Virus record (IMG/VR): IMGVR_UViG_3300030117_005127
Coordinates: 1 to 31,964 of that record
Strand: one strand, 5' to 3'
Length of the DNA: 31,964 bases
Origin: a virus
Of the stretch, positions 3,164-25,627 are shown one piece after another (the first letter of the stretch is position 1; every line of letters starts with the position of its first letter). A program made the position numbers and the translations under genes. The notes under the pieces were generated by a model. It saw nothing but the letters and a program-made list of their open reading frames with translations, was not told the origin of the DNA and searched no databases.

Positions 3164-6100
3164 TGGCAAAGCAGACCTATGTTATTAAAAATTTTCATGG
3201 TGGTTTAAATTCTAACGCCGACCCTAGAGATATAGCCCAAGAAGAAGCGTCAGATATAAAAGCTGGCATTACCAACCTTGGTAAGTTAACAACTTTAGGA
3301 CAGTTTGATACTGGGACCACCACAGGCTCAAATACAACAGGGGACATAGTAAATAAGTATGGGCTATTTGTAATGAGTAGCGATACGAAAATAGACAATA
3401 GCGCTGGTTCTGAAACTTTAATATTTTTATATGACCAGGGAACAAACATTGATGTTTTAGATAGCTCTGGTTGGAATGCAAGTGAAATAACAGTAGCAAG
3501 TAGTTCTAAGCCTGTGTTTTTTTCTGCTGATGGTATATTAAGAGTTGGAGATAAAAACTTAAACTCTCTTGGAAGATGGTATGGGTATATTAATCGAACT
3601 GCATTTTCTTCACTAGGTTCTTCAGAAGCGATAAACGATTGGGTAGATACAAACGCATATCCAGCGACTCCAAGTGCTGGAAATTGTTTAATTAGCACTC
3701 CAAATAAAGCATCTGATAGCACTGGTCCAAATTCAAATATAGCACAATATATAGGCGCAATTGGAAGCGGTTTAATTGACAATAATGCAGTAAATCTACG
3801 AGTTGGAGTTGCAGGGGTAACGTCAGTAAAAACAGATGGAACTGCAATTAACGCCAGTCATGATTCTGCAAAAGTTCCAAATGAATCCGATAACTTAATG
3901 GACGATTACAGAAAATATACGGGTGGTAGTAGCGGAGTTTACGCAAATGCTGAAGATGTGTATCCATTGTTTTTAAATAACAATATTATAATGGGCGGAA
4001 AAGAGGGTTTTAATGCTCGTAACGGAGCATCAAACGAAATTAAAGATGACGGTTCAGTTGCTAATTTAAATTATACAATTAATGATAAAAAATCAGTTGC
4101 TGTTGGTGTGTATTTTTGGCAAGAAGAATTAGATAGGGTAAATGTTGTTACTGTAAAACTAGGTGGAGATTCAAGCAATTACAGAGAATGGCAAGTTCCT
4201 GTATCTAAGCTAGCAGTGGGTTGGAATATTCTTGTTTGCGAACAAGGATTGCAAACTTCTGAAACAGGCGCACCTCCAGCTTATGGAGATAGCCATGATT
4301 ATTATAGCATTACAGTAACCCAAATTAATGCAACAAATGGAAACGCAAATACAGATGTTCCAAAGTTCTATATTAGTGGTCCAGTATTAATTGAAAATAC
4401 TGGTAGCATAGGTTATACAGAAGGTACATATTCATTTTATTATACCTGGTTATTTGACGATGAAAAACAAGAATCTATGCCATTTAAATTTCAAGACACA
4501 GACTCAAGTGACAGTTATGCAAAAGAATTAAATCAAGTTACAATTGTTGGCTCTACTCTTCTTTTAAATTTTGACATATATATAAATGCTAAGCCAAGCG
4601 GTACATATGGATTAGATAAAAGAATTATAGGTTCTCGCGTTTATTATAAAAAAACAGATGATGATAATTATTACTTAATTGGAGAATCTAATTTTATTGA
4701 TAAAGGTTTTAAGTTTTTTCCTGAGGCAGAAACATACGATTATAGTTTTATTGATGTAACAGACACAACAACTAATCTTGCCAATGCGGTTGCTATTACT
4801 GGAATAACTCCTGAAAGGGCAAATGTGGTTGATACTTGGAAAAGTTTAAATGGGTTTTATCAAAAAGTTGATACTTTGCAAGCATCTTGGAAAACAGGAA
4901 CCGTTCAGGGAAGAAGAGCGTATGTTGGAAACGTTAAGCAAGACAACGTTACTTATCCAGATAGAATGTTAAAAAGCATGGTTAATCGCTTTGATACATT
5001 TCCAAATAAAGACAGTATTGTTGATGTTGCGGTGCGAGACGGAGAAAATATTGTTAAACTGGAATCATTTGCGGACAGAATATTGCAATTTAAAGAAAAA
5101 ACACTGTATGTGATTAACGTTGCTCAAGGTTCTGAGTTTCTAGAAAATATTTATCCATATAATGGAATTGCAAATGAATATCATAGTATAAAAACAGATA
5201 AAGGAATTGCATTTTTTAATGAATATGGTGCGTATTTATTTACAGGAAACCAGGTAGTTAATTTATTAGAAAAAAATGGAAGAACAGTTATTAGCGAAGA
5301 TACATGGAGAACCTTTATTACTAACAGCGGAATAGAGGACTCTTCTATTGGATATGCTCCTAAAAAACATCAAATTGTATTTTTAAACTACGATGGAATA
5401 ATATACGTTTATAATTTAAAATTAGGCTCGTGGATTTTTACGGGAAATACGTTAAATGCATATAGAGATTATGATGCTAGAAAAATTACTAGGCTAGCAG
5501 TAGATGGAGACAACAATATGTTTTTTATTGGTGGCACAAACTCTACTGTCTATAAATACAGCCATTTACCGTCTACTACTCATGATTTTACATATATTAC
5601 AAAAGATATTGACTTTGGTGACCCTTCAATTAGAAAAAAAATATACAAAGTATATATAACTTATAGAACGGCTGCAAATGAACTTCCTAATATAGTTTGT
5701 ACTTTTGATGTAAATGGAGAAACAGCATATGATAAAACATTTAAAGACGGAACTAATTATTCTACTTTTTTATCAGATTACAAATCGCTTTTGCCGTCTG
5801 CAAATTGGACAACAGCGGTTTTAAAACCAACAACTAGCTCTGAGGCAAATAATATTTATTCATTTGCTTTAAAATTAAATATTAACTCTAATGTTCGCGC
5901 CAATACGGCTCAAGGGGCTGATGATGCAACTCATATTACACTAGACTCAGGTGCTTCTTCAGTCGATGATTATTATAATAATATGCAAATTACAATATGG
6001 AGCGGAAATGGATTGGGTGAAACAACAAGAATACATGATTATGTAGGTAGTTCTAAGGTAGCAACTGTAACACCTGCATGGAGTACAACCCCAAACAGTT

Positions 6101-15356: not shown

Positions 15357-15480
15357 TTCCTTCATTTTAGTGTAACATTTTTGTAACATTCCTCCTTAAA
15401 TTCTCCTATATTTAATAATTGATGCGCCCATGTCAGCCATTCTCGGGCGGTAAGGCGCACAAACAAGCAAGGAGAATACT
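15357..15480 (+). promoter_or_regulatory. Leader region of the fibre operon: arm-like repeat, AT-rich promoter candidate, stem-loop
   Basis: This 124-bp gap separates the ejection genes from the fibre operon. It holds a TGTAACAT direct repeat (15371-15389), an AT-rich stretch with TATATT at 15407-15412 that could be a -10 element without a clear -35, and a stem-loop with TGCGCC (15423-15428) facing GGCGCA (15454-15459). A GGAG ribosome site follows at 15471-15474, 6 nt before the next ATG. A promoter for the fibre and lysis genes is likely here by context; the exact start is not evident. Confidence 0.45.
15371..15389 (+). repeat. Stray copy of the attP arm-type motif
   Basis: TGTAACAT occurs twice with an 11-bp period. 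The 19-bp unit differs from the unit at 23181-23199 next to attP at only two positions. All other copies lie in the attP arms. It may bind the same phage protein (integrase or excisionase) or be an operator for the fibre operon. Confidence 0.65.
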
Positions 15481-15846
15481 ATGGCTAACTATTTGACATC
15501 TAAGTCACACCAAAAAAGTGTAGTCGAATCTTTAAACGCAGATGTATCCGCTGGTTGGACCGTTTCTAGCGCGCTAACTATTTCTAGCGCAGCTCACGCA
15601 TATAAAACTTTATCCTCAGATACTAATTCAATTTTAATCTATTCAGATTCAGATGTTTATATTCGTTTTGACCAATTAACAAGCGATACAATTTCTACAT
15701 CAAATGATGTAATTATACCAGCACAAACTTTAATGAGCATTCGCGTTCCTAATGGATTAAAAGCTAGCGCAACAACTGCAATAACAGTTCATTTTAAACA
15801 AGTTACGTCAGTTGCAACTAAAACTTTAAGATTAGTCGAGGTATAA
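15481..15846 (+). CDS. Small beta-rich virion protein
   Basis: A 121-residue protein with GGAG 6 nt before ATG and its own leader region. It is rich in Ser, Thr, Val and Ile with regular beta-strand alternation and very few charged residues; it has no signal peptide or membrane segment. It could be a head decoration protein, a fibre attachment protein or another small capsid component. Its message probably runs on into the fibre gene, which starts 2 nt after its stop. I recognise no family. Confidence 0.45.
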   Translation: MANYLTSKSHQKSVVESLNADVSAGWTVSSALTISSAAHAYKTLSSDTNSILIYSDSDVYIRFDQLTSDTISTSNDVIIPAQTLMSIRVPNGLKASATTAITVHFKQVTSVATKTLRLVEV

Positions 15847-21736: not shown

Positions 21737-23185
21737 ATGAAAAGCAAAGCTGTCTTTTGGACTCATGAAAAAAAAGACAGGGCAACTAAACTTCTTTTAA
21801 AAGGCTATACATATAGTAAGGTAGCCTCAATTCTTAATTCAGAATATCCTGGTGAAATTTTTAACGCAGAAAAAATCCGAACTTTAAAACGAAGCGGTAA
21901 ATTGGGTATTAGTCCTAATAAAAGTTTACACGACACAGTAACTGAACACAATGAAGACTTAGGTGTAAATATTGACAGTTTTCAAGATGAACAAGATGAT
22001 TACAAAAAACCAGGTAAAAACTTTCAAGTAGTTGGCAATTATGCAATTTTAGATTACAGAGGAGAAAAAAACCCTCAAACGTTAGACGAGTTATTGCAAG
22101 CTTGCAACGTTGATAAAGAAATATGGAAAGTAGATAGATATGTAGTCAACAAATGGGAAACGGCTATGAAAACATCGGAAGCAATTATTCATAGACCTTT
22201 ATTTCAGGTTAAAGCATGGCTGGTAAGAATTAAGCCTGTTGAAGTTGAATTTCCACATGTTTCTCCAATAGCTCCATTAAAACTTAAAAATTTTAAAATA
22301 AACATTAAAAAATCTAAAAATTTTAAGAAAGCACTTATTATACCAGATGCTCAATTTGGTTTTAGAAGAAATACCGAAACTGGAATACTAGACCCTTTTC
22401 ATGATAGGCAAGCTCTTGATTGCGTTTTGCAAGTCGCTGAGCTAGAAAAACCAGACACTATAATATATTTAGGTGACATGATGGATTTACCTGAATGGTC
22501 AGATAAGTTTTTGGTTTCTCCTGAGTTTTTTTTTACTACACAACCAGCAATTAACGAATTGCATTGGTGGACCAAGGAGTTTAGGCAACATTGCGAAACC
22601 ATGATTTATTTAGAAGGCAATCACGAATTAAGAATGAGCAAGGCTATATCAAAAAATATAATCGCAGCATATAACCTTAAACCAGCTAATGAACCAAAAA
22701 AGATTCAGATGACAATTCCTACTTTGCTAGCTCTTGATGATTTAGATGTAGAATATAAAGCACCTTATCCCGCTGGTGAGTATTGGCTAAACGATAATTT
22801 GCGTGTTTCTCATGGCACTGTAGCTAGAAAAGGAAACGCTGATACTGTGAAAGCAATCCTAGCTCAAGCAAGAAATTCTGAAATAGTTGGACATATACAT
22901 CGACATGAAATGGCACAAAAAACTGTGCATCCTCGAAAGGGTATTAGAACATATGTAGCATATTCCCCAGGAACTGTTGCGCGCATCGAATCCAACATTG
23001 TGCCTGCATTTAGCCCAAGAAATGATTGGCAACAAGGTTTTGCATTAGTAAACTACCAAGATAATAATGGACTATTTCAAATTATACCACATAGTATATT
23101 TAATGGAGTCACATTATATAATGGGCAAGAACTCAAAGCTAGAACTCCTTTAATTAACAAACTTAAAAAAAAGTTGGATTTGTAA
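21737..23185 (+). CDS. Metallophosphoesterase with N-terminal HTH-like domain
   Basis: A 482-residue protein. Residues about 8-57 look like a helix-turn-helix module (TKLLLKGYTYSKVASILN), 95-165 form a linker domain with VDRYVVNKWE, and 198-395 are a calcineurin-like phosphoesterase: PDAQFG (D204), GDMMD (246-250), GNHE (294-297), SHG (H359) and GHIHRH (385-390), all metal ligands. The first motif has Gln where D-x-H is usual, as in several phage relatives. It may be a nuclease or a nucleotide/protein phosphatase; the DNA-binding-like part favours DNA. It is the last rightward gene before attP, a place where accessory genes accumulate. Its stop lies in the first arm repeat. Confidence 0.7.
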   Translation: MKSKAVFWTHEKKDRATKLLLKGYTYSKVASILNSEYPGEIFNAEKIRTLKRSGKLGISPNKSLHDTVTEHNEDLGVNIDSFQDEQDDYKKPGKNFQVVGNYAILDYRGEKNPQTLDELLQACNVDKEIWKVDRYVVNKWETAMKTSEAIIHRPLFQVKAWLVRIKPVEVEFPHVSPIAPLKLKNFKINIKKSKNFKKALIIPDAQFGFRRNTETGILDPFHDRQALDCVLQVAELEKPDTIIYLGDMMDLPEWSDKFLVSPEFFFTTQPAINELHWWTKEFRQHCETMIYLEGNHELRMSKAISKNIIAAYNLKPANEPKKIQMTIPTLLALDDLDVEYKAPYPAGEYWLNDNLRVSHGTVARKGNADTVKAILAQARNSEIVGHIHRHEMAQKTVHPRKGIRTYVAYSPGTVARIESNIVPAFSPRNDWQQGFALVNYQDNNGLFQIIPHSIFNGVTLYNGQELKARTPLINKLKKKLDL

Positions 23186-23263
23186 CATTTGCGTAACATT
23201 GATAAAAGCCGAGTTACAAATATGTTACAATATTCTTTAAGTTCAACAATATCAATACATTCG

Positions 23264-23310
23264 CTTGGCTACGGACCAGAAGGTTGGGGGTTCGAATCCT
23301 CCCGGGCGTA
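23264..23310 (+). other. attP core: 3' half of a tRNA-Arg(ACG) gene
   Basis: From the anticodon stem onwards the sequence reads as a tRNA: anticodon loop CTACGGA with ACG at 23271-23273, T stem GGGGG/CCTCC around TTCGAAT (23286-23302), acceptor 3' strand CGGGCGT (23303-23309) and discriminator A (23310). The D arm and 5' acceptor strand are absent, and the pair 27-43 is a C/A mismatch, so the identity with the host gene probably begins one or two bases later. Integration here would rebuild the host tRNA gene. Confidence 0.8.
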
Positions 23311-23338
23311 CAGACGATAAACTAAGTCTAATGACGGC

Positions 23339-23368
23339 AAACCCCCTTTATTGGTGGTTTTTGTTTTT
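23339..23368 (+). terminator. Probable rho-independent terminator right of the attP core
   Basis: AAACCCCC and GGTGGTTT pair over a 6-nt loop (one mismatch) and T-rich sequence follows. It would end rightward transcription coming from the late genes across the attP core. The mismatch makes it moderate in strength. Confidence 0.5.
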
Positions 23369-23409
23369 ATGGTTGGCGTGGTTTATAGTGGTTTGTAGGG
23401 GTTTGTTCT

Positions 23410-23469
23410 GATACAAAAATGCTACACCTTGATACAAATATGCTACACCTCAGATACAATTATGTTACA
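23410..23469 (-). repeat. Three phased arm-type repeats of attP
   Basis: Units at 23410-23426, 23431-23447 and 23453-23469 (GATACAAATATGCTACA and close variants) are spaced 21 and 22 bp apart, about two helical turns, so protein bound to them would lie on one DNA face. They end two bases before the integrase stop codon. Confidence 0.75.
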
Positions 23470-23471
23470 TT

Positions 23472-24482
23472 TTAGGGAAGAGAACGAATTTTCTCGTCAA
23501 TAAAATCAAAATCCTGATGAGTATAAATATCCGCTGTAGTTGCTTCGCTGCTGTGAGCTAGCATTTTCTTTCTATCTTTTGAGCTTAAGCCGCCTTCAGT
23601 TAACATCATCATGTTAAAAGTGTGTCTTAAACAATGAATATCTGCGCGTTCATTATATCCAATTTTTAATAATTCTTTTTTAAATCGCTTTGTAGAGTCA
23701 TCTCTATCTTGTTTTTTTGTATAAACATTAACAATGTTCATTGCTTTTAATTTTGGATGTAGGGGTATTTCTATAGGTACATCAGTTTTATTTGTGTCGT
23801 GAATTAATATTCTATCTTTTTGTACCTGGTTTTTTGTCAAAGTCCCAGCATCGCTAGCTCGAAGCCCAGTGTAATAGCAAATACTCCAATAAGCTTTGTC
23901 TTTTTTTGAAATATTATTAGACCTTAATATTTCTAAAACATATTGCGTGGGTATTGGAATGCGTTTTTTAGGGTTATGCTTTGGTATGTCTGGATGCAAT
24001 GCAGGGTTTTCGTTTTCAAAATACTTATATTTTGTTGCAAATTCAAACATAAGTTTAATATTTCGTACTTCATCCCCTACTGTTTTTGCAGAAACATTAC
24101 CTTCGTGTATTCGATATACAATGTATCTATCTATATCGCTTGAATCTACTTGTGTAAACATTTTTCTGTTTTTTGGTATTTTCATAAATTCATTAAAATT
24201 GTCAATATATTTACACTTTTGTTTAAGGTAACCCATGCTCTGGTCTTTTGTTTTTTTTGAAATCATATTTTGCTTAAACTCTTCACATACATCATGTATA
24301 GTCATACGCTGATTCTGTGGGATGTTGTTCTTTTTAAAAAAAAGTTCTTCATCCCACTTTTTTTTCAGGATTTTTGCTAGCTTGAGGGATGCGGTCCCAG
24401 TGCTTCGCATAATTCTATTAGGAGGAGTGCCTTCTGTGTACCACCAATTTGGACTATCTCCTCTGCGATAAAGCCTGCTCAA
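23472..24482 (-). CDS. int: Tyrosine site-specific recombinase (integrase)
   Basis: A 336-residue tyrosine recombinase. The N-terminal part has a short beta region for arm binding (WWYTEG...RSTGT) and residues about 60-155 form the SAM-like core-binding domain. The catalytic domain shows R208 (TGLRASD), K232 (NKTD), H283 and R286 (HCLRH), H310 (LAHSS) and the nucleophile Y320 (DIYTH), so all six active-site residues are present. It should recombine the adjacent attP core with the host tRNA-Arg gene. Its start overlaps the repressor stop by four bases (ATGA), so it is read from the repressor promoter and may be made in lysogens or just after infection. Confidence 0.92.
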   Translation of the reverse strand: MSRLYRRGDSPNWWYTEGTPPNRIMRSTGTASLKLAKILKKKWDEELFFKKNNIPQNQRMTIHDVCEEFKQNMISKKTKDQSMGYLKQKCKYIDNFNEFMKIPKNRKMFTQVDSSDIDRYIVYRIHEGNVSAKTVGDEVRNIKLMFEFATKYKYFENENPALHPDIPKHNPKKRIPIPTQYVLEILRSNNISKKDKAYWSICYYTGLRASDAGTLTKNQVQKDRILIHDTNKTDVPIEIPLHPKLKAMNIVNVYTKKQDRDDSTKRFKKELLKIGYNERADIHCLRHTFNMMMLTEGGLSSKDRKKMLAHSSEATTADIYTHQDFDFIDEKIRSLP

Positions 24483-25306
24483 TTTATATCTCCATTTATA
24501 ATAACAGATTTACTTAAAACTTTAACAGGTTTTGATTTCCAATCAAGTAAAATATAACATATAGTATTGCAATAATGTTCACCAATTACATATTTGACAG
24601 GCGTAACCATATAATGTAATCCAGCAACCCATTTTAAAGAATCCAAAACAGCAGGCAAATTTCGAGTCATTCGTTTCAACTCTTTTAAAGACTTAGTATC
24701 AATAATTTTATCAACAGGGTGTTTATCAGTTACATGCCAGTTGTTTTCAGAAAAATACTGATTTCTGATTATGTCAGTTGAAGAATTTAATTTTTTTGCT
24801 AACATTTCAATGCCTTCTATGTTGTATATCTTTCGCTCCATTGGTTTCAGACTAAAAATATTTTTCATCTCAACTGTTGTCTGCATATCAGCTTGAACAT
24901 CATCAAATTTCATTTTTTGCAACGGCTGTTGTTCAAGTATATTTTTAAGCATCACTAGTTCTTTTTCTTGCTGTTCTATTTTGTCCTTTTGCAGGTCAAT
25001 TATATATTGACTATCCATTTCTGACTCCGTTTGATTGTCTTTGAGTTTTATATTTTTGTTTTTTAACTCAATTTTTTTATTATAAACTTTTAAAAATCCA
25101 CTTTCCTCTGATTTATTGTCAATATAATCAGCAACAGAAGTGTTGTACGTTTTGCAGTATTGTTGAATAATTGACAAAGGCATTCTTTTTCTAGACTTCC
25201 AATTTGACACAGCAGCGGGCGAAACTTTAAAGACTTTCGCTAGCTCAGCATCCGAATAGATTTCTTGTTCTAATTTTATTTTATTTAGTATAAATTGTAT
25301 ATTCAT
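24479..25306 (-). CDS. Phage repressor with CI-type HTH and unfamiliar C-terminus
   Basis: A 275-residue protein. Residues about 1-64 are a helix-turn-helix domain (SDAELAKVFKVSPAAVSNWKSRKRMP) of the bacteriophage CI type. Residues 98-125 form a coiled coil. The last 140 residues have no Ser-Lys S24 peptidase motifs, so RecA-driven self-cleavage is not expected and induction must work otherwise. No Shine-Dalgarno site precedes the ATG, which could mean a leaderless message as in lambda cI. It faces the early genes across a control region with inverted and tandem repeats, as expected of the lysogeny regulator. The C-terminal family is not recognised. Confidence 0.75.
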   Translation of the reverse strand: MNIQFILNKIKLEQEIYSDAELAKVFKVSPAAVSNWKSRKRMPLSIIQQYCKTYNTSVADYIDNKSEESGFLKVYNKKIELKNKNIKLKDNQTESEMDSQYIIDLQKDKIEQQEKELVMLKNILEQQPLQKMKFDDVQADMQTTVEMKNIFSLKPMERKIYNIEGIEMLAKKLNSSTDIIRNQYFSENNWHVTDKHPVDKIIDTKSLKELKRMTRNLPAVLDSLKWVAGLHYMVTPVKYVIGEHYCNTICYILLDWKSKPVKVLSKSVIINGDIN

Positions 25307-25438: not shown

Positions 25439-25627
25439 GTGCATGATTTCTTAACGGTATCACAAGTTGCTGACGAACTAAAGGTTTCAAAAGGCACAAT
25501 TCGACAATATATACAAACGGGAAAGCTGAAGGCTAGTAAGCCTAATGGTAAGAATTTTATTATTATGCGAGCTGAGCTTTTAAACTTTGTAAATAAAACA
25601 GTATATAAACCATTAGCTACTCTTTAA
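25439..25627 (+). CDS. Excisionase-like small DNA-binding protein
   Basis: A 62-residue protein with GTG start, preceded by AAGGGG at 6 nt. It has the HTH_17/excisionase pattern LTVSQVADELKVSKGTIRQYIQTGKLKASKP, a MerR-like winged helix that bends DNA. As the first rightward gene next to the repressor it may be a Cro-like switch, the excisionase for attP, or both. The nearby decamer repeats may be its sites. Confidence 0.7.
   Translation: MHDFLTVSQVADELKVSKGTIRQYIQTGKLKASKPNGKNFIIMRAELLNFVNKTVYKPLATL

Follow-up and report, generated by a model that had tools for sequence, protein, structure and literature searches.

Two questions are raised by this locus: into which gene does the phage integrate, and which bacterium is its host? 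The window analysed is the first 31,964 bases of the 39,557-bp IMG/VR record IMGVR_UViG_3300030117_005127, which is classed as linear. It carries a partial tRNA-Arg(ACG) sequence surrounded by repeated short words and followed by an integrase gene. The site was identified as an attP because arms stand on either side of the core, phage genes are found on both sides, and the layout is the same in 12 related contigs. We consider it very probably the complete attP of a temperate marine phage infecting Candidatus Neomarinimicrobiota (SAR406). SAR406 is an uncultivated phylum that is widespread in the ocean, and little is known of its phages.

Layout of the attachment region and state of the sequenced DNA

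The features of the region are listed in Table 1. The earlier note had placed a tRNA-Arg(ACG) 3' half at 23264-23310; the identity was correct, and the coordinates are revised in the table. ARAGORN found no tRNA gene in the window, so the core is a partial tRNA copy lacking the 5' half. The terminator-like hairpin beyond it has one stem mismatch in the window copy and is perfect in the related contig L004. Sequence similar to this hairpin is also present 3' of the host tRNA-Arg in the SAR406 genomes G122, G123 and TMED46. A terminator scan and folding of the hairpin were not significant for the window copy, and Rfam gave no match in the window.

Table 1. Features of the attP region and neighboring genes (window coordinates).
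Feature	Position	Strand	Remark
Left outer arm-type unit, TGTAACATTTGCGTAAC	23181..23197	+	Two differences from the consensus of the earlier note
Left inner arm-type unit, TGTAACATATTTGTAAC	23213..23229	-	Opposite orientation to the outer unit; kept in nearest relatives
attP core, 3' half of tRNA-Arg(ACG) (anticodon stem to 3' end)	23266..23311	+	46 bp identical to host genes
Terminator-like hairpin (C-run/G-run) with a T tract, following the tRNA half	23336..23371	+	
Right arm-type unit 1, TGTAGCATTTTTGTATC	23410..23426	-	
Right arm-type unit 2, TGTAGCATATTTGTATC	23431..23447	-	
Right arm-type unit 3, TGTAACATAATTGTATC	23453..23469	-	Absent or decayed in Met-type relatives
Tyrosine integrase, 336 aa	23472..24482	-	Pfam Phage_integrase, E 8.7e-14; reads toward the site
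CI-like repressor (HTH)	24479..25306	-	Weak hits near cut-off
62-aa HTH_17 protein	25439..25627	+	E 7.4e-11 to HTH_17 domain

The integrase gene adjoins the site, as the earlier note had claimed. Its catalytic residues R208, H283, R286 and Y320 are invariant among 10 relatives and H310 is nearly so. The N-terminal 50 residues are conserved; no named arm-binding domain was matched in this part, and the structure model there has a pLDDT of about 45, too low for confidence. Phage records contain no close relative of the att/integrase region (best integrase identity 25 to 28%). The small HTH_17 protein is a candidate excisionase.

Two scans of viral contigs recovered relatives with integrases 66 to 98% identical to that of the window. 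Left arm, core, right arm and integrase stop follow one another in this order in 12 of the 12 contigs that cover the site; with several near copies among them, the set amounts to about seven distinct versions. In the window, virion genes lie to the left of the site, and the integrase, the CI-like repressor and replication genes lie to the right. Since an arm and phage genes lie on each side of the core, the DNA is not an integrated monomer. The sequenced copy is unintegrated, i.e., a free circle, virion DNA, a concatemer or the middle of a tandem dilysogen, which agrees with the previous claim of a free form or concatemer. A tandem double lysogen or a replication concatemer, rather than a free genome, is an unlikely source: the attP form was seen in all 12 relatives found, and the record contains neither joined host DNA nor a second phage copy. 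It has to be said for this source that an attP between two phage copies in tandem would look identical, and that the record is a linear, gapped scaffold and not a closed circle (10-N gaps at 31965-31974 and 37496-37505). The window end abuts the first gap, and the middle piece of the record (31965-37495) has a somewhat higher GC content (0.378 versus 0.342).

Arm-type repeats at the site and upstream of late genes

Two left and three right units had been described as sharing one word. The four minus-strand units at att fit TGTARCATWWTTGTAWC exactly, and the outer left unit differs at two places. Each unit is a direct repeat (TGTARC/TGTAWC) with the two parts 11 bp apart, about one helical turn. 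Allowing one mismatch or less to the looser word TGTARCATNNNYGTAWC, six units were found in the window, five of them inside 300 bp; dinucleotide-shuffled windows (n = 60) contained a mean of 0.1 units and a maximum of 1. We infer from the sequence that the repeats are integrase arm sites. The sixth unit, which is perfect and far from att (15371-15387), was not mentioned in the earlier note.

The arm word recurs as TGTAACATTWTTGTAACAT at 15371-15389 in the window and at G246:20681 and 37452, G249:21762 and G250:19175 in related records. These copies sit in short gaps upstream of late genes (a portal-like gene; the gene at 15481), as if they were part of a late promoter or operator. Because the same repeat is present there, the arm units may not be read by the integrase alone. 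A related word, TGTAACATWATCGTTAT, is found in five family records (G000:38556, G246:16801, G248:18635, G249:17821 and G250:15919); in G000 it precedes a small gene. The leader of the gene at 15481 also contains a hairpin at about 15423-15465 with the stem TGCGCC/GGCGCA. The equivalent leader hairpin of the relative L111 has the stem TGTATC/GATACA and a similar loop, a comparison of two sequences only.

The TGTARC repeats could instead serve mainly as operators or promoters for a phage regulator, the integrase arm sites being elsewhere or coincident with them and the core still an attP. Such a role would fit the perfect unit TGTAACATTTTTGTAAC, which at 15371 precedes a late gene and in three relatives precedes the portal-like gene or its homologue; it would also fit the related word at G000:38556 and its homologues. 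It accounts poorly for five units that cluster around the core at fixed spacing and are asymmetric between left and right. In addition, two other integrases that share the core have words of their own (CGTCCC and TGTGAC) at the equivalent places, and in the available L014/L015 sequence these words occur only at att. We consider a mainly regulatory function rather improbable and retain the assignment as putative arm sites.

Matching tRNA genes and probable decayed borders in SAR406 genomes

A 42-bp word from the core was searched in one genome per species (84,980 species). Exact matches were found in eight genomes, all Candidatus Neomarinimicrobiota (Marinimicrobia, SAR406), and 8 of 8 fall inside intact tRNA-Arg(ACG) genes. 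The prediction of a host tRNA-Arg with a matching 3' half was thus borne out. A degenerate word covering the variants of the sister phages matched 16 of 245 SAR406 genomes. The tRNA-Met core matched six SAR406 genomes exactly and 40 within two mismatches. Both cores are exact in TMED46 (G003) and G002. The GC content is 34% in the window and 32 to 43% at the matching host loci. Major capsid relatives were also considered as a host clue and dropped, being too distant to name a host.

The earlier note had proposed searching bacterial genomes for prophages at tRNA-Arg(ACG). None of the 245 SAR406 genomes yielded an intact prophage; two of them have decayed borders. The same genomes contain no close integrase, only distant ones, some beside tRNA-Leu or tRNA-Met. 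In a BLAST comparison of the phage region with the phylum, the match extended beyond the tRNA in G122 and G123, which belong to one genus. In G123:C31, an intact tRNA-Arg leads into the terminator-like hairpin, then two right-arm units and finally the last 15 integrase codons, where the match ends. In G122:C19, the tRNA-Arg is followed by 86 bp of the corresponding phage sequence. A left-arm-like unit, TGTCACATAATTGTAACAT, is present further downstream in both genomes. In G123:C28 it precedes GTTACA at the phage-like 43-bp offset, a partial tRNA core and a host gene common to G122. This partial core (L089, about 3820-3915) is a hybrid that follows the Met type as far as the T-arm and the Arg type beyond it, and is possibly the trace of a target switch. 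The G122 and G123 sequences likely mark the two ends of an old insertion at tRNA-Arg, most of which has been lost by deletion. This reading is called likely and not proven because the G123 borders are on two contigs and the left arm is degenerate.

Two other loci were rejected. The match in G133 covers only the host tRNA and its flank. In G041, two tRNA-Met core copies enclose 22.8 kb of sequence (L074-L075, G041:C12:47611-70423) that lacks this integrase; by eye, its proteins look like products of type III CRISPR and reverse-transcriptase genes.

The attP and SAR406 assignment follows from Arg-core matches that are all in SAR406, sister Met cores that are also exact there, and the tRNA-Arg junctions in G122 and G123. 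Counted against it are the failure to find an intact prophage or a close integrase in the 245 SAR406 genomes, a second G123 border that sits on a separate contig with a degenerate left arm and a Met/Arg hybrid core, a repeat that is not exclusive to att, and an integrase N-terminus with a weak model and no match to a named arm-binding domain. The 46-base tRNA match and the decayed scars indicate that the phage hosts are uncultivated ocean SAR406 (Marinimicrobia) bacteria. This host link is the useful part of the result, and an exact attP-attB pair with decayed junctions ties a family of temperate phages to SAR406 more firmly than a composition-based prediction.

Target switching, proposed mechanism and known systems

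The tRNA-Arg core is found in the window, L004-L007 and L096, and a tRNA-Met(CAT) core in L008-L011 and L097-L099. The Met users occupy two places on the integrase tree, which requires at least two target switches; some branches of the tree are moderately supported. Related integrases are generally known to change tRNA targets; in this family, the sister integrases that have moved between tRNA-Arg and tRNA-Met open target choice to testing. Partial tRNA copies are present in many phages, and yet it is highly improbable that the core is an accidental or stray piece of a tRNA with no part in integration, as its position between the arms and beside the integrase is constant in all relatives, the layout persists while the tRNA identity changes, and host-tRNA junctions are present in G122 and G123.

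In the proposed mechanism, the integrase from the adjacent gene would bridge the arm units and the core, and the 46-bp core would recombine with the host tRNA-Arg(ACG) gene at its identical 3' half. The crossover is probably in the anticodon loop, judged from the position where identity begins. A crossover in the T-loop is disfavored, since the attP identity begins at the anticodon stem in all relatives. The host tRNA would retain its own 5' half and receive an equivalent 3' half and terminator from the phage, so that it should stay functional. A more speculative extension, which we think unlikely, is that one DNA-binding protein reads the TGTAAC direct repeat both at the attP arms and at late operons, and that targets are switched by recombination between Met and Arg cores via the shared T-arm sequence. 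The latter step is suggested by the hybrid core in G123. If true, shared TGTAAC recognition would couple integration or excision to late transcription.

One close comparison is with the IMG/VR phages L014 and L015, which have exactly the same tRNA-Arg core, the terminator-like hairpin and the same arm positions. They differ from the window in their integrases (just 31 to 33% identical) and in having their own arm words. L015 also carries five tandem 11-bp copies of GACTATTCCCT at 559-613, just past the right arm of its different integrase. The attP of phages with heterobivalent tyrosine integrases, of the lambda or L5 type, likewise has a core between repeated arm sites and an adjacent integrase gene read toward it. 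Unlike these, the window attP has its own arm word with units built as direct repeats 11 bp apart, and its integrase has no close named relative (25 to 28% identity to the best phage records).

In a literature search of partial coverage, no paper on both Marinimicrobia and attP was found, and novelty is not thereby proven. SAR406 was among several phyla newly linked to viruses by Roux et al. (2015; PMC4533152). The hosts of uncultured marine phages were named by exact attP-tRNA matches of 36 to 46 bp to Prochlorococcus, Synechococcus, SAR11, Verrucomicrobia and others (Mizuno et al., 2013; PMC3861242); SAR406 is absent from the text of that paper. Compared with those phages, the one described here comes with decayed genome junctions and a tRNA-Met-using sister set as extra evidence.
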